Of a DNA stretch of 37,507 bases, positions 1 to 37,107 are shown piece after piece. The notes beneath the pieces were generated by a model that saw only the letters and a list, made by a program, of their open reading frames with translations, was not told where the DNA came from and did not search any database. Source of the stretch: a virus; IMG/VR virus record IMGVR_UViG_3300020219_000033, positions 1-37,507 of that record, one strand, 5' to 3'. The number at the start of each line of letters is the position of its first letter. Position 1 is the first letter of the stretch. Position numbers and translations under genes: made by a program.

Positions 1-104
1 CCATGAGCCCGTGGTCGCGGCGGGTGCCCCTTCGCCCGTGGTCGCGGCGGGTGCCCATGAGCCCGTGGTCGCGGCGGGTGCCCATGAGCCCGTGGTCGCG
101 GCGG
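1..104. repeat. 27-bp tandem repeat, left copy
   Basis: Nearly four copies of a 27-bp unit. The core cccgtggtcgcggcgggtgc is invariant, followed by cc and a 5-base variable block (atgag or cttcg). On the minus strand each unit encodes nine residues with only two variable positions. The same array appears at 37312-37480. Confidence 0.9.
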
Positions 105-405
105 CACCTACGGTCCCGCCATACTCCGCCACCTTGGCGGCGATCTTGTCCTTGTTGGCCCCGGCGATCTCGACCATGGCGCGCGTCATGTCCACCGTGC
201 CCAGCTCGGCAAACACATGCTCGCGTAGCCAGTCCGCGTCGTCGTGGCGCTTGGCCTCGCGCAACGCCTCGTAGGCTTCACCAAATTGCGCGCCCTGCGG
301 GAACGCGCCGAGAAACCAGCGATAGCCATCGCTGCACGCGCTCCACTCCTTGAGCCGCTCTTTGGTGACCGTGAGCGGCGACGGGGCAATCGTTTCGGCT
401 TTCAT
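1..405 (-). CDS. Repeat-containing phage protein (DUF7666-like), N-terminal part, cut by contig end
   Basis: This open frame starts at ATG 405 and is still open at position 1 (135 codons). It overlaps the stop of the coiled-coil gene upstream (ATGA). Residues 10-70 form a small helical domain (ACSDGYRWFLGAFPQG, then DADWLREHVF) of the kind found at the N-terminus of phage proteins that end in TNTG-type nonapeptide repeats. From residue 104 the chain is a tandem array of a 9-residue unit, TTGxxAPAA, with the variable pair SW, SW, EG, SW. The C-terminal half lies at 37104-37507 minus. Merging the two at the shared 126 bp gives a protein of about 225 residues, although the true repeat number is uncertain. 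Family assignment is from recall of the repeat and tail pattern. Its function is unknown; such repeats probably fold as a beta-solenoid. Confidence 0.75.
   Translation of the reverse strand, partial: MKAETIAPSPLTVTKERLKEWSACSDGYRWFLGAFPQGAQFGEAYEALREAKRHDDADWLREHVFAELGTVDMTRAMVEIAGANKDKIAAKVAEYGGTVGAAATTGSWAPAATTGSWAPAATTGEGAPAATTGSW
6..131. repeat. Terminal redundancy of the contig (left copy)
   Basis: Identical to 37382-37507 over 126 bp, including the unique sequence cctacggtcccgccatactc after the 27-bp repeats. Positions 1-5 no longer match the equivalent right-end bases (ccatg against cctgt). The simplest reading is a circularly closing assembly or a circularly permuted phage genome. 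A true fixed terminal repeat is less likely, because the overlap falls inside a coding repeat array. Confidence 0.85.
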
Positions 406-1604
406 GCTTTCTCCTCTTTGCTGGCCTGCACCGCATCGATCGCCTTCACCACGCGCGCGTACTTGCGGATGTGCCCGAAGCGCTCCCTGAACGTGGCGAG
501 CATGGCCGCAGCGTCGAGCAGTTCGTCGGCTAGGCGTTGTGCCTCGCGGGCCTCGGCCTCCTTACGCTCACGCTCGGCCTCCACCACGCGCTCAGCCTCG
601 TACTTCTCGACGCGGATCCGGTGCTCTTCGGCTTCCCGGGCCTCACGCGCAATGCGGTCGCGCTCGTCCTGCTCAGCCTTGAGAGCGGCCCGTTCCTCCG
701 CAATGCGCTGCTCCTCGGCAGCGCGCGCGGCCGCTGCCTTGCGGTCCTCCTCATCACGCACCAGGCGCGATGCCCGCTCCTGCTCATCGATGCGGGCGCG
801 GCTTGCCCGCTCGTCGGCTTCCAGCTTCTCGCGCGCTGCACGGTCGCGGGCCTCCTGCTCGGCCTGCTGGCGGGCCAGCTTGTCGCGTTCAGCGGCGATG
901 CGCGCGGACTCCTCGGATTGCTTCCGCTCCAGATCCTCGCGCTCGGCCTTGAGGCGCAGGGCTTCGGCTTCGGTCGCTTTCTTCGCGGTGATCATCGACT
1001 GCAGCTTCGCCAGTGTCGCGGCCTTCACCCGCCCGGCCTCGTCGAGGAAGTCCCTGTAGTGCTCGTCGGTGATCTCTGCCGCAGCCATGGCGTCGACTTC
1101 GCCCTGCAGCTCGGCGGCGCTCGCATCGAGCATGTCGAGCGGCAGGCGCTGCATGGTGTCGATCCGGTTGCGCGTGGCCGTGATGCGCTCGGAGATCACC
1201 CGGGCCGCAGCGATGCGCTCGTCTTCCTTCCTGCGCTCCTCGGCCTTGATCTGGTCGTCGATCGGCGTCTCGAGTTTCATTAATTCTTCGGTGATGAATG
1301 CGGCGCGCTGGTCGATGTTCCTGCCGAGCGCCAAGAGCGGAGCCTTCGCCGCTTTGCGCGCGTGCTCGGTCTTAAAGCGCGGTTCGCGGATCTCGGCGCG
1401 AGCGGTGGAGGCTTCTTTGATTCCGGCCGCGGTGGTCACATCGAACACCACGCCGGAATACTTCGTCGACATCTCGCCGATCCCGTGCGAGATCGAATCG
1501 AATTCGGTCATCGCCTTTTGTACCAAGGCGATATTCGTGCGCGCCATCGCCTCGTTGGCGTCGATCACCGTGGGCGATTGCACGGCTTGGGGTTGGCTGC
1601 TCAT
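402..1604 (-). CDS. Coiled-coil phage protein of the recombination operon
   Basis: 400 residues, not matched to a named enzyme. The start is ATG 1604, which overlaps the YqaJ stop (ATGA) and has GGAGGG about 7 bases upstream. Residues 1-110 look globular. From about residue 115 almost to residue 370 the chain is extremely rich in E, K, R, A and Q (runs such as RKEDERIAAARV and AEREDLERKQSEESARI), predicting a long continuous coiled coil. A short, less charged C-terminal segment contains FGHIRKYARVVKAIDAV. It sits directly downstream of RecT and exonuclease genes and is translationally coupled to both neighbours. A structural or accessory role in recombination is an inference from context only. 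Confidence 0.85.
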   Translation of the reverse strand: MSSQPQAVQSPTVIDANEAMARTNIALVQKAMTEFDSISHGIGEMSTKYSGVVFDVTTAAGIKEASTARAEIREPRFKTEHARKAAKAPLLALGRNIDQRAAFITEELMKLETPIDDQIKAEERRKEDERIAAARVISERITATRNRIDTMQRLPLDMLDASAAELQGEVDAMAAAEITDEHYRDFLDEAGRVKAATLAKLQSMITAKKATEAEALRLKAEREDLERKQSEESARIAAERDKLARQQAEQEARDRAAREKLEADERASRARIDEQERASRLVRDEEDRKAAAARAAEEQRIAEERAALKAEQDERDRIAREAREAEEHRIRVEKYEAERVVEAERERKEAEAREAQRLADELLDAAAMLATFRERFGHIRKYARVVKAIDAVQASKEEKA

Positions 1605-2227
1605 GCGGCCCTCCGTTGTAGTTGTTCGATCAGCACCTGCACCTCGGCCTCGGCCTTGATGACCTCGGCCTCTAGTCGCGCGATGTAGGCGTTATCGCGC
1701 TCGACACGGACGCGGAAAATGCGATGCTGCTCCCTGAAACGTGGATCAAAACTCACGAAGTCCCACCACGCACGATCCGTGACCCACATCGCGCCCTGCA
1801 CCTGGGCGACGTGCTCGGCCGGCATGCCGTCAATAAACCGCGCAAGGTGGATGGCCGAGGACTTCGGGCACTTCATTTCGATCCCGCCGTCCGGGCCGAC
1901 CAGCCCGTCGGGTGAGCACCCGGCGAACGGAAAGCGCGGGTGCGTGATGAAGCCCGAAATTGTCACGAGAAGCCCGGTGTCGAGTTCGTAGGCTTCGCGC
2001 GCGTACGGCTCCACGTCCTTGCCCCAACGCATCGAGTACGAGTCCGGGCCGACTTCCGGCAGGCCTGTGAGCCGCTCGACTGCCACTTGCCAGATCAGGT
2101 CGTTGCGTGCCTTGAGCGGGGAGCCGTCTTTCTTTCGCCCGAGCACGCTCTCGAATTCGGAGCCCGTGAACTTGCCCGCTCTCGCGAGCAGCCAGTCATC
2201 CGTACCTTGGGCGGCGGTCTCAAGCAT
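1601..2227 (-). CDS. YqaJ/lambda-Exo-type alkaline exonuclease
   Basis: 208 residues, the usual size for lambda-exonuclease-type 5'-3' double-strand exonucleases of the YqaJ viral recombinase family. An N-terminal GTDDWLLARAGKFTGSEF segment matches the Q/T-W-L-x-x-R-x-G-x-x-T-G-S entry motif of the family. The catalytic core is visible as AGCSPDGLVG followed by GIEMKCP, giving the metal-binding D...ExK set. The protein would resect double-strand ends and hand the 3' single strand to the RecT-like annealing protein encoded just upstream. Start ATG 2227 overlaps the RecT stop by 8 bases and its own stop overlaps the next ATG, so the three genes form a coupled recombination module. Confidence 0.92.
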   Translation of the reverse strand: MLETAAQGTDDWLLARAGKFTGSEFESVLGRKKDGSPLKARNDLIWQVAVERLTGLPEVGPDSYSMRWGKDVEPYAREAYELDTGLLVTISGFITHPRFPFAGCSPDGLVGPDGGIEMKCPKSSAIHLARFIDGMPAEHVAQVQGAMWVTDRAWWDFVSFDPRFREQHRIFRVRVERDNAYIARLEAEVIKAEAEVQVLIEQLQRRAA

Positions 2228-3230
2228 CGTCGGCCCCGGGCTCGCGTTGGGGCTGATCGGTGGCGCCCGCGCTGTCCGCCGGCGCGGCGTCGCTCACTCC
2301 CGGGGCGGGCTTCGGGCTCTTCGTCGCGGCCAGGCCCTTCAAGCGCTCGTGCTCGTCGCCCCCAACCATCTTCCTCTGCTGCTTGGTGAGCTTCGACCAT
2401 TCCTCGGCGTAGGGCTCGATGCCGTATTCCTTCGCAACCATTTCCAGTCGCGTGATCAGCGCGGCGCGCGCATCGGCTTCAGCTTCGTTGGCCGGCGCCG
2501 GGAGCTTGCGCGCGGTTTCCGCGGCCTGCGCCCCGGTCTGACGCAGCGGGTTGATCTCGCGCTCGGGCAGGTTCTCGAGCTCGTCGGGCGTGTAGACCCC
2601 GAGGATCACGTCCGGGCAGTAGAGGCGTGACCAGCGCTTAACGCCGAGGTACGCGAGCTGCTGGCGCGGATCGTCGGCCCACAGCGTGGAATTGCGCGTG
2701 CGCGCCTGGGCGAGCAAAAGCTCGAGCACGCGCGGCTCGTCCTCGCCCTTGAGCGTGGCCCAGACCTTCACGCCGATGCCGTCCTCGTCCGCGAGCTTCC
2801 AGCCGGGCACGCGGTACTCGCCCTTGTCGCCCTTCTTGATCTCGAACTTGCCTATCACCTTGTCCCACGGCCCGTACCACTCGTAGTGGATGCGGTCCTT
2901 GGTTGGCGCCATGGTGTTGATCACCGCGTTCACGAGCTGCGCCTCGTAGCCGAGCTTGCCGGACACGAGGAAGGTCTTCTGCGCGACCGCGAACGGGTTC
3001 ATGCCCCATTGCAGCGACTGCATCGTGATCGCCAGGCAGTCGCCTTCGTTGCGCAGTTCAGGCGGGAGGGTGACCTTGCCCGAGGCCATGAGCTTGGCGA
3101 AGGCCAGCATCGAGGCCATGTTCTGCGGGTTGAGCATCAGGGCGGCCGAGGACAGATGGGCGGCCGGGACGCTGCGAAGCTGGGGTTCTTCGATCACATC
3201 GACTACGGGTGCTGCGGTTGCGGTGTTCAT
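2220..3230 (-). CDS. recT: RecT-family single-strand annealing protein
   Basis: 336 residues. ATG 3230 is preferred over an upstream TTG at 3236 because AAGGAG lies about 10 bases before it. The central region carries typical RecT features: SLQWGMNPFAVAQKTFLVSGK and KLGYEAQLVNAVIN, followed by a basic stretch and PRQQLAYLGVKRWSRLYCPDV. The C-terminal 90 residues (GAQAAETARKLPAP, then an A/P/D-rich tail) are probably disordered or helical. RecT proteins anneal complementary single strands and pair with YqaJ or RecE exonucleases; the exonuclease gene here is immediately downstream and overlapping. Expected roles are phage recombination, end repair and circularisation. Confidence 0.93.
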   Translation of the reverse strand: MNTATAAPVVDVIEEPQLRSVPAAHLSSAALMLNPQNMASMLAFAKLMASGKVTLPPELRNEGDCLAITMQSLQWGMNPFAVAQKTFLVSGKLGYEAQLVNAVINTMAPTKDRIHYEWYGPWDKVIGKFEIKKGDKGEYRVPGWKLADEDGIGVKVWATLKGEDEPRVLELLLAQARTRNSTLWADDPRQQLAYLGVKRWSRLYCPDVILGVYTPDELENLPEREINPLRQTGAQAAETARKLPAPANEAEADARAALITRLEMVAKEYGIEPYAEEWSKLTKQQRKMVGGDEHERLKGLAATKSPKPAPGVSDAAPADSAGATDQPQREPGADDA

Positions 3231-3276
3231 GTGCAATGCTCCTTGGGTGCCGAGGCTTTGCCGGCGGTGGGTGGGA

Positions 3277-3504
3277 CTAACTACGGGTAAGAGGTTTCAC
3301 GTTCACGAACGTCGCCTTTCTGAGCCAGCGCGAAAGGACGAGCTCGGGATAGCGGCTGTAGCGCGTTCCCGGCTCGTGGATGAAAAGGCGATGCGCTTCT
3401 CCGGTGGCTAGGCCGAAGCGCTGGCGCGCGGCGGCGATCTGCGCGGAGTCGGGAGCGGACACGGTGACGGGCCGGCCGGCGATGATGCGTAGGTGCGGTT
3501 TCAT
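3277..3504 (-). CDS. Small basic protein of unknown function
   Basis: 75 residues from ATG 3504, which overlaps the stop of the NADAR gene (ATGA). The Shine-Dalgarno AAGGAGTCGCC directly before the ATG is nearly identical to the one before ATG 5356, which supports both starts. The sequence (MKPHLRIIAGRPVTVSAPDS, then GTRYSRYPELVLSRWLRKA) is basic, has no transmembrane segment or cysteine pair, and matches no family I recognise. It lies between the NADAR gene and recT in the leftward operon. A 46-base gap containing the recT ribosome site follows. Confidence 0.75.
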   Translation of the reverse strand: MKPHLRIIAGRPVTVSAPDSAQIAAARQRFGLATGEAHRLFIHEPGTRYSRYPELVLSRWLRKATFVNVKPLTRS

Positions 3505-5057
3505 GGCGACTCCTTCGCGGCGGCGAGCATGGCGCGAATCTCCATCCACAGCTTGCCGAGTTGATTTATGCCATTGCGGTTCTGACCCCATCCCCAAAAA
3601 TCGTCGCGCCAAGAATCTTCGATCAGTTCACGGTCGCCAGTCGCCAGCAACTTGCGGCGCACGTACTCGTGCTGAGTTGCTTTGGCCAGCAGGATGCGGC
3701 GCATGATGCTGACTTTCACGTCATCCCAATCATGGCGACGAAAGTACTTCGCGCCTTCCGCAATCTTAAAAGCCTCATGCGCAGACGGCGCTTTGTAGAT
3801 TGAATCGCGCAAGTCGGGGTGATCCGGAAACTTGTGCCAGTGATATGCGGCTTCCGATGTATGGAACGTAAGTCCTTCCCAAACCAAAACGAAAGCCGAG
3901 AAGTTCGACAGAACGTAGAAATCTTGTTCATAGAAAAACACCTGCGAGTCCGTATCTGGCTTGATGTTTCCTAGAACACAACCCTCAGTCTCCCTCGGCA
4001 CACTCACGCTCTCCGCAGCGGCGGGTGGGGCGGGGCGTTCAAGTCTGCATGTCATGTTGTCGATCTGCGTCAGCACGCCCATGAGGTCAGGCAACGGTCG
4101 CCAATCCTTATTACCGCCGTAGTGCCGTTCAGATAGCGCCTCTGCCAGCCGCCGAGCGTACTGGTATTCCTCCGGTCCTTTTACCGCCTCGCTCGCAGCC
4201 TGCGGGGAGGGGCCGGTATAGAGAGGGGTGGGTTTCTTGGCCTGCTGCGGCTCGCCACTGAACGGCGACAGAATCCGTTCGCGTAGCCGCTTTACTTCAT
4301 CGGCTAACAGTATTTGATAGCGTAAGTTGTCGTTCAGGTCGAGGCCATAAGGCCCGTAACTGGCAACTATGTCCAAGACATCTTGTACGTTTTCCGGGTG
4401 TTCGTCGGTGAACACTTCGGGTTCTCGGTTGCGGTCCTCGAAAAAGATCAGCCACCACGAACCATCCTTGATGGGCTGCGGCTCGGGTGCAGCGACCGCA
4501 GCCTGCGGGGAGGGGCGGGCGGTGATGGGAACGCGAGTGATTGCCTTGAGATATCCGTCGCGTCCGTCCTGCACACTCGCCACCGGACACGAACACGCTC
4601 CGGGTGTCGGGCACCCGCGAGGCTCTAGGCCAGCGCGGATCGCGTCCGCGTCGAATTCCGCCCCTTGCTCCCGGTAGGCTTCGCTCGCTCGGGCGGTGGC
4701 GAGGATTGCCGCAACGGGCGCAGCTACCGCAGGCTGTTTATTTATCCCATGCACATAAGTATGGGACTCCTGTGCGGGAGCCTCCTGCGGCGCTGCATTC
4801 GTATTCTCGTCCGACAGAATCCCGCGCATTTCCGCAACGGTCGGCAACCGCTTCGGCTCCGGGAACGCGGACAGGGCGGCGTCCTCGATCTGCTTGCTCT
4901 GCAATGCGATTTGCGTGCGCTGCACCTGATCGCGCGCACCGTCCACGCGCCCGAGGTCGTACACCTTCTGCACGATCTGGCGCGTGAATTCGGTATCGCC
5001 CAGGGCGCGGATCGCAAGCTCCAGCTGCTCGGCGGTGGCGGTGGTGTAGGTATTCAT
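3501..5057 (-). CDS. Modular Ea22-like protein with C-terminal NADAR (YbiA-like) domain
   Basis: 518 residues from ATG 5057 (ATGA overlap with the upstream gene). Residues 1-60 are helical, followed by low-complexity A/P linkers. A middle module (WWLIFFEDRNREPEVFTDEH) and a module WRPLPDLMGVLTQIDNM are separated by repeated PSPQAA linkers. Residues about 369-518 form a NADAR domain: YVLSNFSAF, FHTSEAAYHWHKF, HDWDDVKVSIM, LLATGDRELIE, DDFWGWGQNRNGINQLGKL. NADAR proteins act on NAD/ADP-ribose compounds; YbiA is an N-glycosidase and some members reverse guanine ADP-ribosylation of DNA. A counter-defence or NAD-related role here is inference. The shuffled-module architecture resembles phage Ea22/DUF551-type proteins. 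The linker-encoding DNA is repeated near 4200 and 4500. Confidence 0.85.
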   Translation of the reverse strand: MNTYTTATAEQLELAIRALGDTEFTRQIVQKVYDLGRVDGARDQVQRTQIALQSKQIEDAALSAFPEPKRLPTVAEMRGILSDENTNAAPQEAPAQESHTYVHGINKQPAVAAPVAAILATARASEAYREQGAEFDADAIRAGLEPRGCPTPGACSCPVASVQDGRDGYLKAITRVPITARPSPQAAVAAPEPQPIKDGSWWLIFFEDRNREPEVFTDEHPENVQDVLDIVASYGPYGLDLNDNLRYQILLADEVKRLRERILSPFSGEPQQAKKPTPLYTGPSPQAASEAVKGPEEYQYARRLAEALSERHYGGNKDWRPLPDLMGVLTQIDNMTCRLERPAPPAAAESVSVPRETEGCVLGNIKPDTDSQVFFYEQDFYVLSNFSAFVLVWEGLTFHTSEAAYHWHKFPDHPDLRDSIYKAPSAHEAFKIAEGAKYFRRHDWDDVKVSIMRRILLAKATQHEYVRRKLLATGDRELIEDSWRDDFWGWGQNRNGINQLGKLWMEIRAMLAAAKESP

Positions 5058-5356
5058 GCTCGCGCCTTGACGACGGCGGCGCGGGCGATGGCGGCTTCGC
5101 ACATTTGCTGCATGGTCATTTCTTCATTTGCGCGCATTCCTCTGCCGTCCTCGTCGCTCGCGTCGGCGCGGTCGGCGAACCAGTTGATGCACTCTTTCAA
5201 AGCCTCCGCCAGTTCGGCGCGGTCGCCTTCGAGCTTGCGGGCGTGGCCGATTGCTGCGGCCAGCGGGAACTCGTCAGGCTGGAATCCGGCATCGCGGTAC
5301 CTGGTCACCAGCGCATCCGTGAGCGGCGTCCGGGTAATTGCCCCATCGGTGCTCAT
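5054..5356 (-). CDS. Small acidic phage protein, unknown function
   Basis: 100 residues if started at ATG 5356, which has a strong AAAGGAG ribosome site six bases upstream, near-identical to the one at 3504. An in-frame ATG at 5449 overlaps the upstream stop (ATGA) and would give 131 residues, so a longer product is possible. The core GHARKLEGDRAELAEALKEC and INWFADRADASDED is helical and acidic and resembles the short EAL-helix modules common in phage early genes. No enzyme motif is seen. It is coupled by ATGA to the NADAR gene. Confidence 0.72.
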   Translation of the reverse strand: MSTDGAITRTPLTDALVTRYRDAGFQPDEFPLAAAIGHARKLEGDRAELAEALKECINWFADRADASDEDGRGMRANEEMTMQQMCEAAIARAAVVKARA

Positions 5357-5445
5357 GGCGACTCCTTTGTGGCATCTAAGCTCTGCGGATTGTTCCGCGA
5401 GCTTGCTGCCGTAACCAGTTCGCGGATGCCGCCACGGATCGGCGC

Positions 5446-5625
5446 TCATGCGGCCACCTTCATTTCCGGGTGCTCGCGCTCGATTGCGTGGCGCAGCGTG
5501 GACGATGCCTTGCTGCATGCGTCGGCAATCCGCATCTGCTCAGGGATGGTTGCGTTCCCGATGCGCAGGGCCTGCCGGGCAGCGTCGAGGGCGTTGATCG
5601 CGACAAGGATGTCAGCGGTATTCAC
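5446..5625 (-). CDS. Small helical early protein
   Basis: 59 residues from GTG 5625, which overlaps the stop of the upstream gene (GTGA), so this start is favoured over an earlier one that would lie inside that gene. The sequence (NTADILVAINALDAARQALR, then RHAIEREHPEMKVAA) is entirely helical with no recognised domain. It is the second gene of the leftward operon and its stop overlaps a possible ATG 5449 of the next gene. Function unknown. Confidence 0.65.
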   Translation of the reverse strand: MNTADILVAINALDAARQALRIGNATIPEQMRIADACSKASSTLRHAIEREHPEMKVAA

Positions 5626-5933
5626 AGCGCACCCCGCGTCGCCATCCGATCGATCCTGCGCCGCAAGCACTTCACGGCCACGCGGTGGGCTTCGTAGCGG
5701 CGCAGAGTGTCGGCCCGATACGCCCCGGTCACGTACTTCGAGGACTGGGCAAGGATGTCGGCCTGGACCATGCCCGCCACGCGATGGTGGGCGAGCAGCG
5801 AATGCATGCGGTCGTAGGGCGTGGTGCGGGCCTTCTCGGCCGCGATCAGGGCGTCGATGTCATCGAGGCCGGAGAAGTCACCCGACAGGGCGCCCCGGAA
5901 GGCGGTGTCGGTCTGGGCTGCAAGTCGGTCCAC
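5622..5933 (-). CDS. First gene of the leftward early operon, unknown function
   Basis: 103 residues from GTG 5933, chosen because AGGAGG lies a few bases upstream. The sequence is helical with a basic C-terminal end (RYEAHRVAVKCLRRRIDRMA). It matches no family I can name. Its position directly behind the leftward early promoter is the one held by N in lambda, but it lacks the short arginine-rich N-terminal peptide of N proteins, so I do not call it an antiterminator. Confidence 0.7.
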   Translation of the reverse strand: MDRLAAQTDTAFRGALSGDFSGLDDIDALIAAEKARTTPYDRMHSLLAHHRVAGMVQADILAQSSKYVTGAYRADTLRRYEAHRVAVKCLRRRIDRMATRGAL

Positions 5934-5946
5934 GTTTCCTCCTGGT

Positions 5947-5962
5947 CGCTCGGGAATCGAGC
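5947..5962 (-). promoter_or_regulatory. Short hairpin in leftward leader, boxB-like
   Basis: A perfect 5-bp stem (GCTCG/CGAGC, 5948-5952 with 5958-5962) and a 5-base loop lie between the leftward -10 and the ribosome site of the first gene. The geometry resembles lambda boxB, but no boxA-like sequence was seen and the loop sequence differs. It may simply be a leader hairpin. Confidence 0.3.
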
Positions 5963-5972
5963 AAGTGGAGGA

Positions 5973-6001
5973 TTAAAGCATTACTTTATTCTAGGTGTCA
6001 A
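5973..6001 (-). promoter_or_regulatory. Leftward early promoter (PL-like)
   Basis: On the minus strand TTGACA (6001-5996) is followed by an 18-base spacer and TTTAAT (5977-5972). The spacer contains operator site 1. It drives the long leftward operon starting at 5933. Its layout is a near copy of the rightward promoter at 6227-6256. Confidence 0.75.
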
Positions 6002-6035
6002 GCATTGCTTTAGTTTCACATGGAACCATGCTTTA
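5973..6035. promoter_or_regulatory. Left operator cluster (three sites)
   Basis: Three related palindromic sites. They are taaagcattacttta (5974-5988), aagcattgcttta (6000-6012) and a weaker half-palindrome ccatgcttta (6026-6035). The consensus dyad is TAAAGCAATGCTTTA. The first two are exactly 24 bp apart and the third about 23 bp further. They overlap the -10/spacer and flank the -35 of the leftward promoter, as repressor sites would. Confidence 0.8.
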
Positions 6036-6180
6036 TTTCGAGCTCTGGCGGTAGTCCCAAGGAGGGACGGGGGCGGGGTCTGTCCAAGGCCCGCGCCAGC
6101 ACCGCCGAGGTGATCTTGCTCGGCTTGTGACTATCCATGGCGTCGATAAGTCGCCGCTTCAATTCGGTCGCATCAAGCAT
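6016..6180 (-). CDS. 54-residue ORF, possible remnant of a CI-type repressor N-terminus
   Basis: Starts at ATG 6180 and ends with TGA at 6016-6018. Residues 5-32 (ELKRRLIDAMDSHKPSKITS, then AVLARALD) resemble helix 1 and the start of helix 2 of a lambda-repressor-type helix-turn-helix. After residue 32 the sequence turns to RPRPRPSLGL and ends, with no recognition helix and no S24 peptidase domain. It occupies the place where cI would lie between the divergent promoters and operators. No good ribosome site is visible. It could be an internal-deletion remnant, a tiny functional regulator, or chance. Confidence 0.4.
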   Translation of the reverse strand: MLDATELKRRLIDAMDSHKPSKITSAVLARALDRPRPRPSLGLPPELEIKHGSM

Positions 6181-6215
6181 GACTTGATTGTCCGTGCCCC
6201 CGAAAACCCGGGGAA

Positions 6216-6254
6216 GAAAGCAATGCTTGACGTTTGATATAAAGCAATGCTTTA
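6216..6254. promoter_or_regulatory. Right operator pair
   Basis: Two sites, gaaagcaatgcttga (6216-6230) and the perfect dyad taaagcaatgcttta (6240-6254), exactly 24 bp apart. The first overlaps the -35 and the second the spacer/-10 of the rightward promoter. They match the left operator sites in sequence and spacing. Confidence 0.85.
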
Positions 6255-6256
6255 AT
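6227..6256 (+). promoter_or_regulatory. Rightward early promoter (PR-like)
   Basis: TTGACG (6227-6232), an 18-base spacer and TTTAAT (6251-6256). Transcription is expected to start about seven bases on, at or next to the cro-like ATG at 6263, with no room for a Shine-Dalgarno, so the mRNA may be leaderless. Confidence 0.75.
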
Positions 6257-6262
6257 ATTTAC

Positions 6263-6532
6263 ATGAACACTGAAACCGCAATCGAAAGGGCGTGCCGCGT
6301 AGTTGGCGGACAGGTGGAAATGGCCGGAAAGGTGGGGGTGACGCCGCAGGCCGTGAATCAGTGGGCCAAGGCCGGACGCCCGCCAGTTGAGCGCGTGCTG
6401 GCCATCGAAGCCGCGACAGCCGATGAAACCGGCCTGCCCCGCGTCTCGCGCCACGAGCTGCGCCCCGACATCTACCCGGTGCCGGCCGCAGATCGTCCCA
6501 CCAGCGGCCCTGAGCCTGTGAGGGTCGCGTGA
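6263..6532 (+). CDS. Cro/YdaS-like helix-turn-helix regulator
   Basis: 89 residues from ATG 6263. Residues 5-45 form a compact HTH: AIERACRVVGGQVEMAGKVG then VTPQAVNQWAKAGRPPVERV. This is the arrangement seen in YdaS/Cro-superfamily proteins of prophages (a conserved GG, then helix 2, then a VNQW recognition helix), and the SRHELRPDIYP segment that commonly follows is present. The C-terminal 20 residues are proline-rich. It is the first rightward gene behind the operator-bearing promoter and probably binds the TAAAGCAATGCTTTA sites. No Shine-Dalgarno precedes the ATG. Which of the expected repressor pair it represents is inferred from orientation. Confidence 0.85.
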   Translation: MNTETAIERACRVVGGQVEMAGKVGVTPQAVNQWAKAGRPPVERVLAIEAATADETGLPRVSRHELRPDIYPVPAADRPTSGPEPVRVA

Positions 6533-6636
6533 AGCGCGCCTACGCCGCGGCCGAGCTTGCTCGCGCTCTACCCGAGATCCTCGCGCTGGCTCGCCAGCTC
6601 GGGGCCGATCTACCCGCAGCACCCCGAAAACGCTAG
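6529..6636 (+). CDS. 35-residue helical ORF
   Basis: Starts at GTG 6529, overlapping the stop of the Cro-like gene (GTGA), and ends at TAG 6634-6636. The product begins MKRAYAAAELARALPEILAL and ends AAPRKR, an alanine/leucine amphipathic helix with basic ends. The overlap is the same type used between real genes elsewhere in this phage, which is the main support. Function unknown. Confidence 0.45.
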   Translation: MKRAYAAAELARALPEILALARQLGADLPAAPRKR

Positions 6637-6684
6637 GCCCGGCGCACGCGCGTCGACGGTCAAAAAGAAGAAGGAGAAGAAGGC

Positions 6685-6930
6685 ATGTGCTGGTTACTCC
6701 CCTCACCGATCGCGACAACCTTGCCCGCCCGCCAGGTCGGAAAGATGCGCATGCTAAACGACGAGCAGAAGGCGGCTCGAGTCTCGTTTGCCCGCGTGAG
6801 GCGCGCAGTCACCTGCTACGGGCAGCGCTTCGAGAGCCTGCGTGAGGCCGAGCGGCGCACGGGCCACGCGATCTCGTCGATCCGGCTCTGGGCGGATGAC
6901 TGCAGAAACGGATGGGGGTGGGTCGCCTAA
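6685..6930 (+). CDS. Small basic protein upstream of the replication gene
   Basis: 81 residues from ATG 6685, preceded by a purine-rich AAGGAGAAGAAGGC ribosome site. The C-terminal half (RRAVTCYGQRFESLREAERR, then TGHAISSIRLWADDC) looks like a small DNA-binding-type helical region: a helix, TGHAISSIRLWAD as a possible recognition helix, then NGWGW. Starts at ATG 6745 or 6751 are possible alternatives. Its TAA overlaps the ATG of the initiator gene. Function unknown. Confidence 0.7.
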   Translation: MCWLLPSPIATTLPARQVGKMRMLNDEQKAARVSFARVRRAVTCYGQRFESLREAERRTGHAISSIRLWADDCRNGWGWVA

Positions 6931-7718
6931 TGGCTCGCATCCGCACGATCAAGCCGGATTTTTGGTCTGACGCGACACTCATTGAATGCTCACTGAATGC
7001 GCGCTTACTGTTCATCGGAACCTGGAATTTTGCTGACGACTTCGGCAACCTCGATCGCTCCGCAAAACAGATCAATGCGCGAATTTTTCCAGCCGACAGC
7101 CTCGATTGTGAGCCCCTGATCGCCGAATTGATCGTTCACGGATTACTCATTGAATACTCCGTGAATGAAAAGAAATATCTACACATTCATGGCTTTGCAA
7201 AGCATCAAGTTATCAATCGACCCGGTAAACCTCAGTGTCCGCTCTATGAATCATCACTGAGTACTCACGGAGCACTCACTGAACACTCACGGAGCATTCA
7301 CGGCGGAAGGGAAGGGAAGGGAAGGGAAGGGAAAGGAAAGGAAGGGATAAAAGAAAGAGCAGAGCACGCGCCGCGTTCCGCGTCGCCTCCGCCGAAGGCC
7401 TCAAGGTTCAACCTCGAAACCCCCCCCGAGGACTGGCGAGCGTTCTGCACGGCCGAACGCCCAGACCTCGACCCCGCAAAAACCTTCGCCGCCTTCGGCG
7501 ATTACTGGCGCGGCGTCCCCGGCGCAAAGGGCAACAAACTCGACTGGATCGCCACCTGGCGCAACTGGGTGCGAGGCGAGAAGCGTGACCGCGCATCCGG
7601 CATCGTCGCCCCGATCGCAGACGGAAAAATTACATGCCGGGCGTGCGGTGAACGCTGTTCGACCTACACCGATTTCCGATGTGACCCTTGCTACCGCGCC
7701 GGGAGGATGGCCGCATGA
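6930..7718 (+). CDS. Lambda-O/DnaT-like phage replication initiator
   Basis: 262 residues from ATG 6930, overlapping the previous stop (TAATG). The N-terminal 100 residues (MARIRTIKPDFWSD, LFIGTWNFADDFGNL, YLHIHGFAKHQVINRP) are typical of the winged-helix N-domain of phage replication organisers. A purine-coded GREGKG linker follows. Residues about 165-220 (ETPPEDWRAFCTAERPDLDP, WIATWRNWVRGEK) resemble the DnaT/primosomal C-terminal domain. A CxxC...CxxC pair (CRACGERC, CDPCY) ends the protein. It would bind the iterons embedded in its own gene and recruit host helicase. No helicase or loader gene follows, so a host DnaB-type system is presumed. Confidence 0.82.
   Translation: MARIRTIKPDFWSDATLIECSLNARLLFIGTWNFADDFGNLDRSAKQINARIFPADSLDCEPLIAELIVHGLLIEYSVNEKKYLHIHGFAKHQVINRPGKPQCPLYESSLSTHGALTEHSRSIHGGREGKGREGKGKEGIKERAEHAPRSASPPPKASRFNLETPPEDWRAFCTAERPDLDPAKTFAAFGDYWRGVPGAKGNKLDWIATWRNWVRGEKRDRASGIVAPIADGKITCRACGERCSTYTDFRCDPCYRAGRMAA
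6978..7307 (+). repeat. 11-bp iterons inside the initiator gene (putative replication origin)
   Basis: Nine 11-bp units of consensus CTCAYYGARYA. A pair lies at 6978-6999, a pair at 7146-7167, and five head-to-tail units at 7253-7307 (for example ctcacggagca at 7264-7274 and again at 7286-7296). Iterons inside the initiator gene followed by a biased tract are the layout of lambdoid origins. Confidence 0.75.
7304..7343 (+). repeat. GGAAG purine tract next to the iterons
   Basis: Eight consecutive 5-bp units, GGAAG or GGAAA, running directly from the last iteron and ending in ggataaaag. All-purine on the plus strand. It encodes the GREGKG linker of the initiator and may be a strand-separation or triplex-prone element of the origin. 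Confidence 0.85.
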
Positions 7719-8062
7719 CCCACGACACACGCCCTCGCGCTCCGTGCGCTCACGAAACCTGCAACGTCCTGTCCATGGTTCGCGTTCAAACGCCAACCGG
7801 TTGGGCGAATCTTTGCCTCAGCCACTACGCCAGCCAGAACGACGAGGAAGCGCGCCGGTATTGCCGCGATCACGGCCTCGACACGACCGAAAAAAAGATT
7901 GCGCATTGCCGCTCGCTGTGGAAAAAGCCGCGTGACCCTCGCGCCTGGATGAAGAATCCGAAATCGGATATCGCGCGGCAGTGGCGCGACGAGATCCTCG
8001 CGCGAGAGAACAGCCGCACTCGCACCCCCGGTGAAGACGACGAACTCGAGGCTGCGGCATGA
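7715..8062 (+). CDS. Cys/His-containing small protein, unknown function
   Basis: 115 residues from ATG 7715, which overlaps the initiator stop (ATGA). It contains CAHETCNVLSMV, LCLSHYASQ, RYCRDHG and AHCRSLWKK, giving paired Cys/His positions that could hold zinc. A basic DPRAWMKNPKSDIARQW segment and an acidic tail (EDDELEAAA) follow. It occupies the place of a helicase loader after an O-like gene, but no Walker motif is present, so that role is not supported. Confidence 0.75.
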   Translation: MTHDTRPRAPCAHETCNVLSMVRVQTPTGWANLCLSHYASQNDEEARRYCRDHGLDTTEKKIAHCRSLWKKPRDPRAWMKNPKSDIARQWRDEILARENSRTRTPGEDDELEAAA

Positions 8063-8322
8063 GCGCCCCCCTCGCGCGCGTTTCCCCGACCTGCTCGACC
8101 TGCGTGCACGGCCTCCCGATGCGCGCCACGAGCGGCTACGAGCCCGGCCTCATCGCCTGCGGGCTCGAGGGCCCCTCCAAGTTTTATCCGCAGGGCCGAA
8201 CGTGCGCCCGGTGGATCCAGCGTTCAGCGCCGCAGATGCGTGCAGCCGCGAGGCCCACGTTGCCCCCCAGAACATCTGCGGAGGCTGAACAGCAGCAGTG
8301 GTGGGACGCTACAAACCGATAG
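8059..8322 (+). CDS. Cysteine-containing small phage protein
   Basis: 87 residues from ATG 8059 (ATGA overlap). The pattern CSTCVHG, IACGLEGPSKFYPQGRTC and CARW resembles the short phage zinc-ribbon-like proteins that read CxxC...C...GxxC. The C-terminal third is low-complexity (A/P/Q). No enzymatic motif. It is translationally coupled to the preceding Cys/His protein, so the two may act together. Confidence 0.72.
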   Translation: MSAPLARVSPTCSTCVHGLPMRATSGYEPGLIACGLEGPSKFYPQGRTCARWIQRSAPQMRAAARPTLPPRTSAEAEQQQWWDATNR

Positions 8323-8349
8323 TCGAAATCAATCAACAGGAGCATCGCA

Positions 8350-8664
8350 ATGCAAACCGGAACGCATGAAGGCAAGGCAAAGGGCAACGGGCGGAGCAAG
8401 CCGGTGGGGCGCCAGGACAACGAAGGCCAGGAGCAGGTGATCGAGCTTGGCGTGATCCACGAGCGCGAGGACGAGTTGATCGCGCTCAAGGTCGCGCAGG
8501 TCGAGGCCGCGGAGAACTACTCCGAGGGCATCAAAAAAGCGGCCGAGGATTCGGGCCTGAACGCGGGCGCGGTCAAGAAGTACATCGAAGCGAAAGCGGG
8601 CGACAAGTTCGATGCGACGAAGAAGAAGGTGACGCAGCTCGCGTTGATCTTCGAGGTCGAGTAA
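8350..8664 (+). CDS. Charged helical early protein
   Basis: 104 residues from ATG 8350 with CAGGAG eight bases upstream. The first 30 residues are G/K/N/Q-rich and probably disordered. The remainder is helical: EREDELIALKVAQVEAAENY, then a GAVKKYIEAKAGDKFDATKK segment. The VKKYIEAKAGDKF portion faintly recalls small nucleoid-associated phage proteins of the DUF2312/GapR type, but the match is too weak to assign. Function unknown. Confidence 0.75.
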   Translation: MQTGTHEGKAKGNGRSKPVGRQDNEGQEQVIELGVIHEREDELIALKVAQVEAAENYSEGIKKAAEDSGLNAGAVKKYIEAKAGDKFDATKKKVTQLALIFEVE

Positions 8665-8669
8665 TCGAC

Positions 8670-8834
8670 GTGTCCTGGTTCTCCGACCTGCCGAGCGCCA
8701 CCGAGGAAGATCGGGAGGCGTACGCGCGCTCGAAGGCGCCGAGCGGTGAGGCCATGGCGTGGTGCCTGGCCGGCATGATCGTGATGCTGCTCATCTCGGT
8801 CGTGGCGGGGATCTGGTCGGTGGTGATCGGCTGA
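8670..8834 (+). CDS. 54-residue single-pass membrane protein
   Basis: GTG 8670 to TGA 8832-8834. The soluble N-terminus (WFSDLPSATEEDREAYARSK) is followed by one clear transmembrane segment (AWCLAGMIVMLLISVVAGIW) and a very short tail. It lies five bases after the previous gene. The hydrophobic block and its location in the early operon suggest a small inner-membrane protein. Superinfection or host-takeover roles are possible but not shown. Confidence 0.6.
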   Translation: MSWFSDLPSATEEDREAYARSKAPSGEAMAWCLAGMIVMLLISVVAGIWSVVIG

Positions 8835-8871
8835 TGCGCCCCAAAGGCATCGACCTGGACGCGATAGCAGC

Positions 8872-9774
8872 ATGAGAGATCCATTTTTAATCGACGGTCC
8901 GGCAGTAATTTCGTTTTCGGGCGGGCGGACGAGCGGCTACATGCTCTGGCGCATCTTGCAGGCGCATGGCGGGACGCTGCCTGACGATGTTCGTGTGATG
9001 TTCGCGAACACCGGAAAGGAAATGCCCGAAACGCTGGACTTCGTCGAAGAGTGTTCGGTGCGGTGGCAGGTGCCGATCATATGGGTTGAGTACCGACAAA
9101 AGGTGGACGGTAAAAAGCAACACGCGATTGTTACGCACGCGACAGCCAGCCGAAACGGAGAGCCTTTTTCGGCCTTGATCGAATCGCGCAATTACCTGCC
9201 AAACGTGGTTGCCCGCTTCTGCACGGTCGAAATGAAGATACGTTCAATGCACCGGGTTATCCGTGAGTGGGGCTGGGACTCGTGGACGTCGTGCGTCGGC
9301 ATAAGGGCCGACGAACAGAGGCGCGTTGCTAAGTTGAGCGCAAGACGCGGCGCGGATACTCCTGACGAAATCGCTATAGCGCCCCTCGCAGAAGCCGGAG
9401 TTACCGTTGCGGACGTTGGCAAGTTTTGGGGCGAGCAGCCTTTTGATCTCCGCTTGCCGAACATGAACGGCAGGACGATGCACGGCAATTGCGATTTGTG
9501 CTTTCTCAAGGGCGCTAAACAGGTTTACGCGCTGATACGCGAGCAGCCTAAGCGCGCTCTGTGGTGGATCGCGCAGGAATCGAAGATTGCATCCGGCGGC
9601 CCGGGCGCGCCAGCCGCATTCGGCCTTGAAGGCCGTAGCCTCTTTTGTGACTCTGGCACGAAATTCCGGATGGACCGGCCCAGTTATGCCCGGATGTATC
9701 AGGCGGCGCTCGCCCAGTCCGAAATGTTCGAGTGGGATGACGAGGCGCTCGAAGACTGCGCCTGCACCGATTAA
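8872..9774 (+). CDS. PAPS-reductase/ATP-pyrophosphatase family protein
   Basis: 300 residues from ATG 8872. The PP-loop is clear: VISFSGGRTSGYML at residues 13-26, the SGGxxSG signature of N-type ATP pyrophosphatases of the PAPS reductase/DndC group. RFCTVEMKI and the NCDLCFLKGAK and DCACTD cysteines could hold an Fe-S cluster, as in DndC-like members. Phage members of this family do not usually take part in sulfate assimilation. Roles in sulfur transfer to nucleic acid or in nucleotide chemistry are hypotheses. It lies just upstream of a DNA cytosine methyltransferase, so a DNA-modification role is plausible. The sequence does not settle the substrate. Confidence 0.85.
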   Translation: MRDPFLIDGPAVISFSGGRTSGYMLWRILQAHGGTLPDDVRVMFANTGKEMPETLDFVEECSVRWQVPIIWVEYRQKVDGKKQHAIVTHATASRNGEPFSALIESRNYLPNVVARFCTVEMKIRSMHRVIREWGWDSWTSCVGIRADEQRRVAKLSARRGADTPDEIAIAPLAEAGVTVADVGKFWGEQPFDLRLPNMNGRTMHGNCDLCFLKGAKQVYALIREQPKRALWWIAQESKIASGGPGAPAAFGLEGRSLFCDSGTKFRMDRPSYARMYQAALAQSEMFEWDDEALEDCACTD

Positions 9775-9823
9775 CCATGACCCCCATCCCCAAAGGCCCC
9801 AAGGCGAAGAGGCGGAGGAAGTC

Positions 9824-10585
9824 ATGATGAAGCCGCTTGCAATCGACCTTTTCACCGGGCTGCACGGTTGGTCCGAAGGTTTAATCGCCGAGGGATTCCG
9901 CGTCGTCGGGTTTGACTTGGAGGATATGTGCGGACAGTTCGGCATTCCGCGACCGGATGGCGTCCAGCTCGTCATTCAGGACGTACTGACGTTGCACGGG
10001 AGTCAGTTCAAGGATGCCGCGCTGATCGTGGCTTCGCCGCCCTGCCAGAATTACAGTTACATGGCGATGCCGTGGTCCCGCGCCAAAGCGATGCAGGCCG
10101 ACATTGAGGCCGATCCGGAGAAGCGGGTAAAGCTGACCGCGCTATTTGATGCCTGCTTTCGGATTCAGCGCGAGGCCATCGCAGCGGCCGGTCATTTCAT
10201 CCCGCTGGTGGTTGAGAACGTGCGCGGGGCGAATCGGTGGGTCGGGCGGTCAAGGTGGAACTACGGATCATTTCACCTTTGGGGCGACCTGCCGGCGCTG
10301 ATGCCGATGACGAAGTGCATAGCAAAGATGCCGGGGCGCGATTACGCCAAGGTTCCCGGTTTCCGGTTCGACGGCAGCGGCAAGTCGTTTCAGACCGCGA
10401 GCGTTGAAGGCATGAAATCCGTTCAGGATGGCCTCGGCGGATATGGCGGAAGTTTCGGATGGAACAATACTCCGATGAGGCGCGGAAATTCAAAATCATC
10501 CGGCCGCAAAGCCGCCTCTGCGCAGATAGCTAAAATTCCGCTCCCGCTCGCCCGTCACATAGCCCGCGCGTGGCTACCGCAGTGA
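9824..10585 (+). CDS. C5-cytosine DNA methyltransferase
   Basis: 253 residues from ATG 9824, with GGAGG about 8 bases upstream; ATG 9827 is an alternative. Motif I is AIDLFTGLHGWSEGL, motif IV is VASPPCQNYS with the catalytic Cys of the PCQ triad, and motif VI is PLVVENVRGANRW (ENV). The protein is shorter than restriction-associated enzymes of 300-400 residues, with a small target-recognition region around residues 150-215, as in many phage orphan methyltransferases. It would methylate cytosine C5 at an unknown site, probably to protect phage DNA from host restriction. No restriction gene is nearby. Its stop overlaps the GTG of rusA. Confidence 0.92.
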   Translation: MMKPLAIDLFTGLHGWSEGLIAEGFRVVGFDLEDMCGQFGIPRPDGVQLVIQDVLTLHGSQFKDAALIVASPPCQNYSYMAMPWSRAKAMQADIEADPEKRVKLTALFDACFRIQREAIAAAGHFIPLVVENVRGANRWVGRSRWNYGSFHLWGDLPALMPMTKCIAKMPGRDYAKVPGFRFDGSGKSFQTASVEGMKSVQDGLGGYGGSFGWNNTPMRRGNSKSSGRKAASAQIAKIPLPLARHIARAWLPQ

Positions 10586-11097
10586 GGCTCGTGCTGCCGT
10601 ACCCGCTTTCGGCCAACCGGTACTGGCGAAGCTACGTGCCCAAGGGCTGGAATCGCGCGCTCGTGGCCCCGAGCGATGAGGCGAAGGCCTACAAGCGCGA
10701 AGTAGCGCGCATGGCCAAGGAGCAGGGCGCCCAGCCCATCGTCGGTCCGGTGGAGTACACCCTCGAGCTTTACCCGCGCCTCCCGCAGGACTGGGCCAAG
10801 CGCGTGAAGAAAGATCCGCTGTGGTGGGATCTGACGGTGCAGTGCATCGATCTCGACAACGCCCGCAAGGTGATGCTCGACGCCCTGGCCGGGATCTGCT
10901 TTACGAACGACAGCCGCATTCGCAAGGATCCGGGCGAGATCATGGTGCCCGATGGTGAGGCGCGCTGCGTGATCACGTTCAGGGCCTACGAGCGCGCGCA
11001 CCCGCAGGCGCCGCTCTTCGATGCGCTCGATAACGGATCTGTGATACGCCGCGCTGCTCCACGTGGAACACCGCAATTGCCCGCAGTGCCGTTTTGA
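10582..11097 (+). CDS. rusA: RusA-family Holliday junction resolvase
   Basis: 171 residues from GTG 10582, chosen because it overlaps the methyltransferase stop (GTGA); GTG 10570 is also in frame. The N-terminus LVLPYPLSANRYWR matches the RusA L-P-x-P-x-S-x-N-R-Y/x opening. The catalytic acidic cluster appears as IDLDNARKVMLDALAG, with the D-x-D-N-x-x-K/R-x-x-x-D-A pattern, followed by TNDSRI. RusA cuts four-way junctions and would resolve recombination intermediates before packaging. It is longer than E. coli RusA (120 residues) because of an insert after residue 60 and a C-terminal extension. Confidence 0.9.
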   Translation: MRLVLPYPLSANRYWRSYVPKGWNRALVAPSDEAKAYKREVARMAKEQGAQPIVGPVEYTLELYPRLPQDWAKRVKKDPLWWDLTVQCIDLDNARKVMLDALAGICFTNDSRIRKDPGEIMVPDGEARCVITFRAYERAHPQAPLFDALDNGSVIRRAAPRGTPQLPAVPF

Positions 11098-11110
11098 TCG
11101 GAGGAAGAAA

Positions 11111-11347
11111 ATGAAATGCAGTGAGTGTTGCTACTACGCATCGATCAAGCCCGCGGACGAGAAGCCCCCCGGGGGCGGTGAGTGCCGCCGCAGGAGCCCG
11201 GCCGTGTCGTTCGTGCCGGTGCCCGCGCCGGACCTGCAAAGCGGGGGCCTCAAGGTGAAGATCGAGCGGTGCTCGGCCTTTCCCACGGTGATGGGCGACG
11301 GGTGGTGCGGGGAGTTCCGGCCGCCCGAGACCACCAGCAGGCATTGA
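11111..11347 (+). CDS. Cysteine-rich small protein
   Basis: 78 residues from ATG 11111, preceded by CGGAGGAAGAAA, a strong ribosome site. It begins KCSECCYYASIKP and continues with GECRRRSPAV, ERCSAFP and GWCGEF, giving a CxxCC...C...C...C pattern likely to bind zinc or an iron-sulfur centre. Similar short CxxC proteins are common late in early operons of phages of high-GC hosts. Function unknown. Confidence 0.75.
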   Translation: MKCSECCYYASIKPADEKPPGGGECRRRSPAVSFVPVPAPDLQSGGLKVKIERCSAFPTVMGDGWCGEFRPPETTSRH

Positions 11348-11372
11348 GCGGCGCGTGGCCGAGCGCGCGCCG

Positions 11373-11603
11373 ATGCCCAACCCCGACTGGCCGAAGCTCA
11401 TCGCCGAGCTTGAGCAGAAGCTCACGGCCTACAAGATCGCGTCCTGCCTTGGTATCCAGATCACGCAACTGGACCGCATCAAGGCCGGCAGCGAGCCGAA
11501 GTACGGCGTTGCGGTCGCCCTGATGGGGATACACGAGATTTTCTGCGGAGGACGACGAGACGAAGCGCCTCTACTTCCGCGGCCTGCCCCAGACCGGGGC
11601 TGA
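11373..11603 (+). CDS. HTH protein at the end of the early rightward operon
   Basis: 76 residues from ATG 11373; GTG 11355 is also possible. Residues 10-45 (KLIAELEQKLTAYKIASCLG, then IQITQLDRIKAGSEPKYGVA) are a recognisable XRE-type helix-turn-helix: KIASCLGI as helix 2, QITQLDRIKAG as the recognition helix. The last 20 residues are R/P-rich and may be unstructured. Its position directly before the late region is where a late regulator would be, but it has no resemblance to known Q proteins. Its 3' end overlaps the convergent gene at 11571-11738 by 33 bp. Confidence 0.75.
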   Translation: MPNPDWPKLIAELEQKLTAYKIASCLGIQITQLDRIKAGSEPKYGVAVALMGIHEIFCGGRRDEAPLLPRPAPDRG

Positions 11604-11738
11604 GATCGTGGGCTTGTCCGGCAAGATCCAATTTCGCCCGACCTTGATTGCGCCCGGCATCCGGCCCTTGCCGCAGAGGTCGCGCAGGCGGGCGGTGGAC
11701 AGGGACAGCAGTTCGGCGGCTTGGGTGAGGGAGATCAT
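11571..11738 (-). CDS. Excisionase-type (HTH_17, MerR-like) DNA-binding protein
   Basis: 55 residues from ATG 11738. The sequence runs MISLTQAAELLSLSTARLRD, then LCGKGRMPGAIKVGRNWILP. This is the compact winged-helix of the excisionase/MerR-like HTH_17 family: TQAAELLSLS as helices 1-2, RLRDLCGKGRMPGAIKVGRNW as recognition helix and wing with the conserved W. It starts three bases after the stop of the gene at 11742-12014 and is the last gene of a minus-strand cassette. It is distinct from the excisionase candidate beside int and may act as a small regulator. Confidence 0.78.
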   Translation of the reverse strand: MISLTQAAELLSLSTARLRDLCGKGRMPGAIKVGRNWILPDKPTISAPVWGRPRK

Positions 11739-11741
11739 GGT

Positions 11742-12014
11742 CTACAGGGTGACGGACCGCGCGACGGGGCGGAACGCGCTCGGCTGAGTCCACCACTTTG
11801 CGCGCATGTCCCAAATCTTGTCGCGGCCGAAAACTGCTCGCGCATCTTGCCGGGCTTGCTTGATCGATTTCGGGCGCGGGAGTGTCACGCACTCGTCGCC
11901 GAGGTTGCCGGTGATGCGCCAGACGTAGTCGCACCCTTCGCGGTAGAGACGGACCGAGATTCGCTCGCGGGAATCATCGTTGCTGGCAATCGTGAATTTC
12001 AAGGCTGCTTTCAT
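11742..12014 (-). CDS. Minus-strand cassette protein, unknown function
   Basis: 90 residues from ATG 12014, with ACTAGGAGCAG directly upstream, nearly the same leader as the gene at 12333. The N-terminal 45 residues look like beta strands (KFTIASNDDSRERISVRLYR, then YVWRITGNLGDECVTL). A helical, basic segment (SIKQARQDARAVFGRDKIWD, MRAKWW) follows. No family recognised. It precedes the HTH protein by three bases. Confidence 0.7.
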   Translation of the reverse strand: MKAALKFTIASNDDSRERISVRLYREGCDYVWRITGNLGDECVTLPRPKSIKQARQDARAVFGRDKIWDMRAKWWTQPSAFRPVARSVTL

Positions 12015-36699: not shown

Positions 36700-36922
36700 G
36701 GCGCTCCCTGAACGAATACACCCGCACCACGCCCTGCGCATCGACGTAGCGCAGACCCGGCTTCGGTGGTGGCGTGGGCTTCGGTGGCGTGCTCGGAAAC
36801 GGCCAGGGCTGGCTTGGGGCGATGGCCGTGCGCGACGGCTGCGGCCCGGCGGTGCGCCACTTCCTCTTTTTCGCCCGCTTTTGAGGGCGGGCCCTGTCCA
36901 CCGGGCGGCTGTGGCCGGTCAC
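36683..36922 (-). CDS. Small basic protein, unknown function
   Basis: 79 residues from GTG 36922, overlapping the Lar-like stop (GTGA) and the HNH start by 17 bp. The N-terminal 25 residues are strongly basic (RARPQKRAKKRKWRT), the middle is proline-rich (PFPSTPPKPTPPPKPG), and the end LRYVDAQGVVRVYSFRERRA looks like a short beta hairpin. No family recognised. The tight overlaps on both sides support it being a real gene. Confidence 0.65.
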   Translation of the reverse strand: MTGHSRPVDRARPQKRAKKRKWRTAGPQPSRTAIAPSQPWPFPSTPPKPTPPPKPGLRYVDAQGVVRVYSFRERRADQA

Positions 36923-37107
36923 GCCTCAGCCCGCTTGTTCCAAATCTCGATTGCCTTTGGGCCGAGGTTCGTCTTGCCGTCGTCATTCTGATACGGCCCG
37001 GTGGTTCCGCATTCGTTGCAGCACACGGCCCAGATGCCCATTTCGATCTCGTCAATGGCCGGGTCGGTGTCGCCGCAGAACGGGCACGGCAGGATGGCAG
37101 CGGTCAT
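36919..37107 (-). CDS. Lar-like zinc-finger protein
   Basis: 62 residues from ATG 37107, overlapping the repeat protein's stop (ATGA). It begins TAAILPCPFCGDTDPAIDEI, then VCCNECGTTGPYQNDDG and AIEIWNKRA. The C-P-F-C-G...C-x-x-C-G and final A-x-x-x-W-N-x-R pattern defines the Lar restriction-alleviation-like family. Members of the Rac prophage reduce type I restriction; that role here is by family resemblance only. Confidence 0.85.
   Translation of the reverse strand: MTAAILPCPFCGDTDPAIDEIEMGIWAVCCNECGTTGPYQNDDGKTNLGPKAIEIWNKRAEA

Follow-up and report, generated by a model that had tools for sequence, protein, structure and literature searches.

A tandem-repeat gene of the YdhT/PHROG 4433-like family, split across the ends of a phage contig, with two variable codons per unit

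The window, the whole stretch of DNA analysed here (37,507 nucleotides, IMG/VR record IMGVR_UViG_3300020219_000033), contains a tandem-repeat gene of a widespread YdhT/PHROG 4433-like family found in many unrelated phages. Rapid reshuffling of such units has been known since 2004 in a Bordetella phage, and the window gene is a further gene of this known kind. The gene product is probably an early cytoplasmic protein related to Bbp36 and YdhT, in which a predicted beta-solenoid would offer recombination-tuned turn dipeptides as a binding surface, the gene having been cut by assembly.

The repeat gene at the two contig ends

When both contig ends are joined, a single 225-aa minus-strand frame is open across the junction. 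The gene runs on the minus strand from 405 to 1 and then from 37507 to 37104 of the 37,507-base record. The parts of the gene and the overlapping ends are as follows.

1 to 405, minus strand: the repeat gene's 5' portion, with start codon (403 to 405), N-terminal domain, linker and 3.9 units before the contig end cuts it
211 to 372, minus strand: YdhT-type N-terminal domain (TKERLKEW..ACSDGYRWF..FPQG..DDADWL)
1 to 104, minus strand: left-end array, 3.9 units of 27 bp, SW-SW-EG-SW (last unit cut)
37104 to 37507, minus strand: 3' part of the repeat gene (flank, six units, C-terminal domain, stop codon 37104 to 37106)
37312 to 37480, minus strand: right-end array, 6 units of 27 bp, SW-SW-EG-YR-EG-YR
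37107 to 37311, minus strand: conserved C-terminal domain (GENGAIVVAWW...VGYVGENGIKAETWY), common to YdhT, Bbp36 and PHROG 4433/27197/18079
6 to 131, no strand: left copy of the terminal overlap, exactly 126 bp, equal to 37382 to 37507
37382 to 37507, no strand: right copy of the terminal overlap, exactly 126 bp, equal to 6 to 131
3 to 5, no strand: the sole bases that differ between left and right (ATG, against TGT at 37379 to 37381)

In the joined protein the N-terminal domain (TKERLKEWSACSDGYRWFLGAFPQG...DDADWL) is followed by a helical linker and six 9-residue units in the frame (A)ATTGxxAPA. The constant 21 nt are identical in all five full-length units, and the variable 6-mers are TCATGG, GAAGGG and TACAGG, every pair of which is three changes apart with no intermediates. 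A chance origin of the array is excluded by the Tandem Repeats Finder score of the right array (264 to 301) together with a 54-bp EG-YR block that is duplicated inside it. The initial annotation had described a TTGxxAPAA array varying only at xx (SW, EG, YR) in a gene at 1 to 405. Such an array is confirmed on the minus strand at both ends, as are the two claimed unit orders when read from the common N-terminal flank. The gene is present at 1 to 405 and is not limited to that interval, as it resumes at 37104 to 37507.

The window protein alone was insufficient as a query for finding viral relatives and alignment queries were needed. With three aligned C-terminal domain sequences as the query, 68 IMG/VR loci were recovered, a few of them near-duplicates. 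A contig end lies within 400 bp upstream of the C-terminal domain in 23 of the 68 loci and within 400 bp downstream in one. Upstream ends of this kind fall inside the array or immediately next to it. From the sizes of the contigs, 1.46 ends are expected upstream (Poisson p about 6e-20); the near-duplicates leave this conclusion unchanged. In four relatives the gene is divided as in the window, one contig end having its N-half and the opposite end its C-half. Two of them (43.7 and 37.0 kb) are the closest to the window in N-terminal domain and unit sequence; the two further contigs are 46.3 and 77.1 kb. The excess of breaks and the four doubly cut relatives strongly support the suggestion that assembly stopped inside the repeat. 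Because these relatives are split in the same way, the window most probably represents a whole phage genome, circular or circularly permuted, that was opened within the repeat gene. Presumably, short-read assembly would be unable to cross the array of such a genome and the contig would end there. IMG/VR classes the record as linear, and the 5-base offset would conceal the terminal overlap from an end-repeat check. A recurring artefact is explained in this way: phage genomes appear linear through the array cut and their completeness is hidden. Another contig (G015, which carries locus L039) has a portal-like gene split across both ends (L113 and L114) and for this reason is probably also a circularly permuted genome.

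The two contig ends do differ in unit order. The whole difference is due to three mismatches in the first five bases (CCATG at the left end, CCTGT at the right), which convert YR into SW, and the second array order depends on these three bases at the extreme contig tip. The population may contain a second array allele, or the difference may be an end error. It could well be a pure assembly or sequencing artefact, although we lean slightly against this: a single fixed array longer than the reads would have been collapsed and cut, and the five left bases would be a chimeric or mis-extended tip. Such an account fits the confinement of the difference to three of the first five bases and the array being a systematic break point in relatives. 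It also fits the scans, which gave no sibling contig with either unit order (a single-protein scan of viral contigs with the window gene found no relatives, an exact flank pattern scan found no contig with the same flank, and a portal scan found one distant portal). Megablast of window positions 1 to 12000 against phages gave no match. The artefact account does not sit well with the unique 34-bp flank that anchors both orders inside one 126-bp stretch, nor with the multiple array alleles that do occur among close relatives of other such phages. The contig also stops exactly where the two orders diverge after the unique flank; this resembles an assembly-graph branch, as would be expected from two read-supported paths, and mildly favors two real paths. 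Array variation within the window phage's own population is plausible. Variants made by recombination between units, as proposed in the initial annotation, are clear in relatives, where unit numbers differ and flanks are alike; in the window they are plausible on the three end bases.

Family members and array turnover

No Pfam family matches the window protein at E values up to 1, and DUF7666 (PF24703) was not detected by Pfam in its N-terminus. An identity as a pentapeptide-repeat or YadA-head solenoid was rejected, there being no match to the Pfam repeat models. The protein matches PHROG 4433 (2e-17), 27197 (6e-13) and 18079 (4e-11), all annotated as unknown function. The NCBIfam YdhT model NF007410 matches its array and C-terminus with 74 bits (E 1.4e-20); this is below the curated cut-off of 300 bits, so the protein is homologous to YdhT and not an equivalog. 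The same model matches a relative in Edwardsiella phage GF-2 at 4.5e-81 with the N-terminus included, and this relative has the same N-terminal domain type as the window. Tblastn with the C-terminal query matches Bbp36 (47% identity, 9e-10), and tblastn of the window protein reaches Bbp36 VR2 and others. A literature search on DUF7666 or YdhT function found none.

DUF7666 replaces the YdhT-type N-terminus in other relatives, including Bbp36 and those of Pseudomonas and Acinetobacter. Contig L141 (IMGVR_UViG_3300031825_000013) joins nearly the same unit type to a DUF7666 N-terminus, which shows that arrays move between different N-terminal domains. L024, from the same metagenome as L141, has a related unit type on a YdhT-type N-terminus.

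Such variation had been expected to be notable; the same phenomenon is already known as VR2 of Bbp36 in Bordetella phages (PMC2884959). VR2 is annotated in the BPP-1 and BIP-1 records. As PMC2884959 describes it, VR2 consists of a 24-bp element plus one of three 5-bp spacers, in 9 to 20 copies by isolate; growth does not require bbp36, and tropism was not reflected in its variants (Liu 2004). Like the window gene, Bbp36 has tandem units in which a constant core is combined with a short variable segment of one of three kinds (YR, ES and NY in Bbp36); a homologous C-terminal domain follows, and the gene is in the early region. In Bbp36 the number and order of units differ between the BPP-1, BMP-1 and BIP-1 isolates. 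It differs in the unit of 8 residues (24 bp) instead of 9 and in its DUF7666-like N-terminus in place of the YdhT type. In common with the VR2 type, the window gene has in-frame tandem units whose core is constant while two codons vary among a small set of alleles.

Comparison of relatives shows rapid unit turnover. Among Bordetella phages whose upstream flanks are identical (330/330), BPP-1 has 14 units, BIP-1 20, vB_BbrP_003 7 and BMP-1 18, with YR, ES and NY in differing orders. Six Pseudomonas phages with flanks about 90 to 98% identical have 4 to 27 units of NR, DY, YQ and others. A third group, of the GHAAAT type, has 28, 16 and 5 units. The chromosomal ydhT of E. coli (ydhYVWXUT operon) resembles the window gene in its N-terminal domain type, its C-terminal domain and GxxA repeats of equal period, but its repeats are degenerate and its length is constant: in 5362 of 5426 genomes a single stretch matched at least 80% of its 813 bp. 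This stability contrasts with the unstable phage genes. The Salmonella S107 gene had no match in the E. coli genomes. A 54-bp deletion, the size of two 27-bp units, has been reported in a gene annotated ydhT during laboratory evolution of Serratia symbiotica (PMC12505973).

Other members show the same plan. The PHROG 4433/27197/18079 proteins, ES18 gp53 and GF-2 ORF55 share with the window the array plus C-terminal domain and the location in the early region of temperate phages. The PHROG proteins and ES18 gp53 differ in mostly having DUF7666 at the N-terminus and in other unit sequences and dipeptide sets; GF-2 ORF55 has the YdhT-type N-terminus, and its unit sequence and dipeptide set differ. 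Mycobacteriophage Tweety gp54 is similar in having a variable-number repeat with substituted positions that is absent from a relative, but its repeats are tetrapeptides.

Variable codons and predicted structure

Selection was assessed in 60 arrays with a median of 10.5 units and 3.5 dipeptides; the relatives are not phylogenetically independent and the p-values are indicative. Between units of these arrays, per-base diversity amounts to 0.29 for the pair of variable codons and to 0.022 for the constant remainder, a 13-fold difference, and some arrays have a third, milder variable position. Among alleles one base apart, non-synonymous changes outnumber synonymous ones 84 to 3 in the variable codons, against 10 non-synonymous and 23 synonymous in the constant codons. 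Since the units are homogenised while diversity stays at two codons, these comparisons of sequences imply unit turnover by recombination plus a probable diversifying selection. The dipeptide alphabet is narrow and common to unrelated phages (D, Y, N, E or H first; Y, R, S, Q, W or D second), the commonest dipeptides being DY (in 21 of the 60 arrays), YR (15) and NY (14). Recognition surfaces typically contain residues of these kinds. At the first variable position D, N, Y and H predominate, all encoded by NAY codons, and changes there usually affect the first codon base only. VR2 of the Bordetella phages would accordingly be one instance of a widespread early-gene family with diversifying selection at two codons per unit.

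AlphaFold2 was run on the window's right-end frame with 26 sequences. The mean pLDDT is 79 and the pTM 0.75, with a confident C-terminal domain. In the array, each unit is predicted to form a four-residue strand (AATT) at 9-residue spacing with the dipeptide in the following turn; the array pLDDT is about 61 to 78 and the five models differ (61.8 to 79.4). A relative with a YdhT-type N-terminus gave a helical N-domain and the same ladder. Searches of solved structures by sequence and by fold gave nothing significant, and the fold matches are uncharacterised phage proteins, the best being I7GSL8 of Xanthomonas phage CP1 (TM 0.91). The beta-solenoid proposed earlier is moderately supported by the one short strand per unit, with the array pLDDT as the weak point.

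An array that is disordered, or serves only as a structural spacer, with slippage causing neutral drift in the number of units, is unlikely. This would agree with the dispensability of bbp36, and the Tweety paper calls similar repeats common in disordered proteins (PMC2884959). It leaves unexplained why diversity is limited to two codons with the 84:3 ratio, and why unrelated phages share the D/Y/N plus Y/R/S/Q/W alphabet, and the regular strands predicted by AlphaFold2 speak against it.

We return to the preferred reading, a turn-displayed binding surface. The protein has by sequence three parts: the YdhT-type N-terminal domain, the tandem 9-residue units and the conserved C-terminal domain. 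Each unit is predicted to contribute a short strand (AATT) and a turn (GxxAP), stacked as a beta-solenoid, so that the turns would display the variable residues. Because the units are identical outside six variable bases, replication slippage or unequal recombination could add, delete and permute them in frame. The phage's own RecT and exonuclease could contribute to this turnover.

Early-region neighborhood and possible function

The window gene is located in an early region. Its neighbors are as follows.

36919 to 37107, minus strand: Lar restriction-alleviation protein (Pfam PF14354, 1.1e-11), the next gene, with start/stop overlap with the repeat gene
402 to 1604, minus strand: coiled-coil-like protein, phrog_17928 (unknown function), the upstream neighbor, overlapping the start of the repeat gene
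1601 to 2227, minus strand: YqaJ-like exonuclease (sequence-family match)
2220 to 3236, minus strand: RecT single-strand annealing protein (sequence-family match)
3501 to 5009, minus strand: protein whose C-terminus is a NADAR domain (Pfam, 2.9e-29); the recombination genes share this strand

On the minus strand the genes follow one another as RecT, YqaJ exonuclease, the phrog_17928 protein, the repeat gene and Lar, with short overlaps; the NADAR protein is encoded further upstream on the same strand as the repeat gene. Lar proteins form a restriction-alleviation family. Guanine ADP-ribosylation is undone by NADARs, which serve as antitoxins in DarT-NADAR operons (PMC11125620). The NADAR protein at 3501 to 5009 may counter DarT-type DNA ADP-ribosylation.

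Five neighbors each were surveyed at 27 relatives. Where matched, they are mainly repressors, N-like antitermination proteins, exonucleases and ssDNA annealing proteins; 103 of the 135 are on the same strand as the repeat gene, and there is no tail family among the top 25 neighbor families. A neighborhood of regulatory and recombination genes favors an early role inside the cell over one in the virion.

Such diversifying selection, acting on a protein outside the virion, suggests that some intracellular partner differs from host to host. In the weakest step of the mechanism, selection would retain certain dipeptides only and give a tunable surface for this partner, most plausibly a host factor or a defence component. 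From the gene neighborhood alone (Lar and NADAR), the preferred function is possibly counter-defence binding. The dispensability of bbp36 and its lack of tropism tracking are counted against this explanation, as no positive role follows from them. A bolder proposal, which we regard as rather doubtful, is that the array serves as a modular surface for recognition, with the dipeptides as letters of a small alphabet, and that recombination of units retunes binding to an intracellular target (e.g., of defence) with no dedicated mutator. If true, it would constitute a counter-defence diversity system of that kind.

The initial annotation spoke of a solenoid surface varied by the phage. A virion surface or tail component that switches receptor specificity by unit shuffling is very improbable. 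Some relatives are annotated as collagen-like or match tail-fibre PHROGs via the low-complexity array, but the gene is in an early operon beside RecT, YqaJ and Lar, its relatives adjoin repressor, antitermination and exonuclease genes, and the VR2 variants did not reflect tropism (PMC2884959). Mutation of the dipeptides by a diversity-generating retroelement is barely credible and is largely refuted for the window genome: the first variable codons, mostly NAY (GAC, TAC, AAC, CAC), recall adenine-directed mutagenesis and BPP-1 has such an element acting on another gene, but a reverse transcriptase was not found in the 37.5-kb record and arrays contain repeated copies of a small number of alleles instead of randomised ones.

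Three other regions of the window may be mentioned. Adjacent short tandem repeats (11/22-bp and 5-bp units) are found at 7254 to 7347 within an open frame of the replication region. In the same region, at 8872 to 10585 (plus strand), a PAPS-reductase-like protein is encoded beside a weak C5 cytosine methylase match. At 25148 to 29217 (plus strand), flanked by the major head protein and later structural genes, a C-methyltransferase is encoded together with a protein of about 1000 aa that has an MptE-like domain and weakly matches a glycosyltransferase; this unusual cargo is perhaps involved in virion glycosylation.
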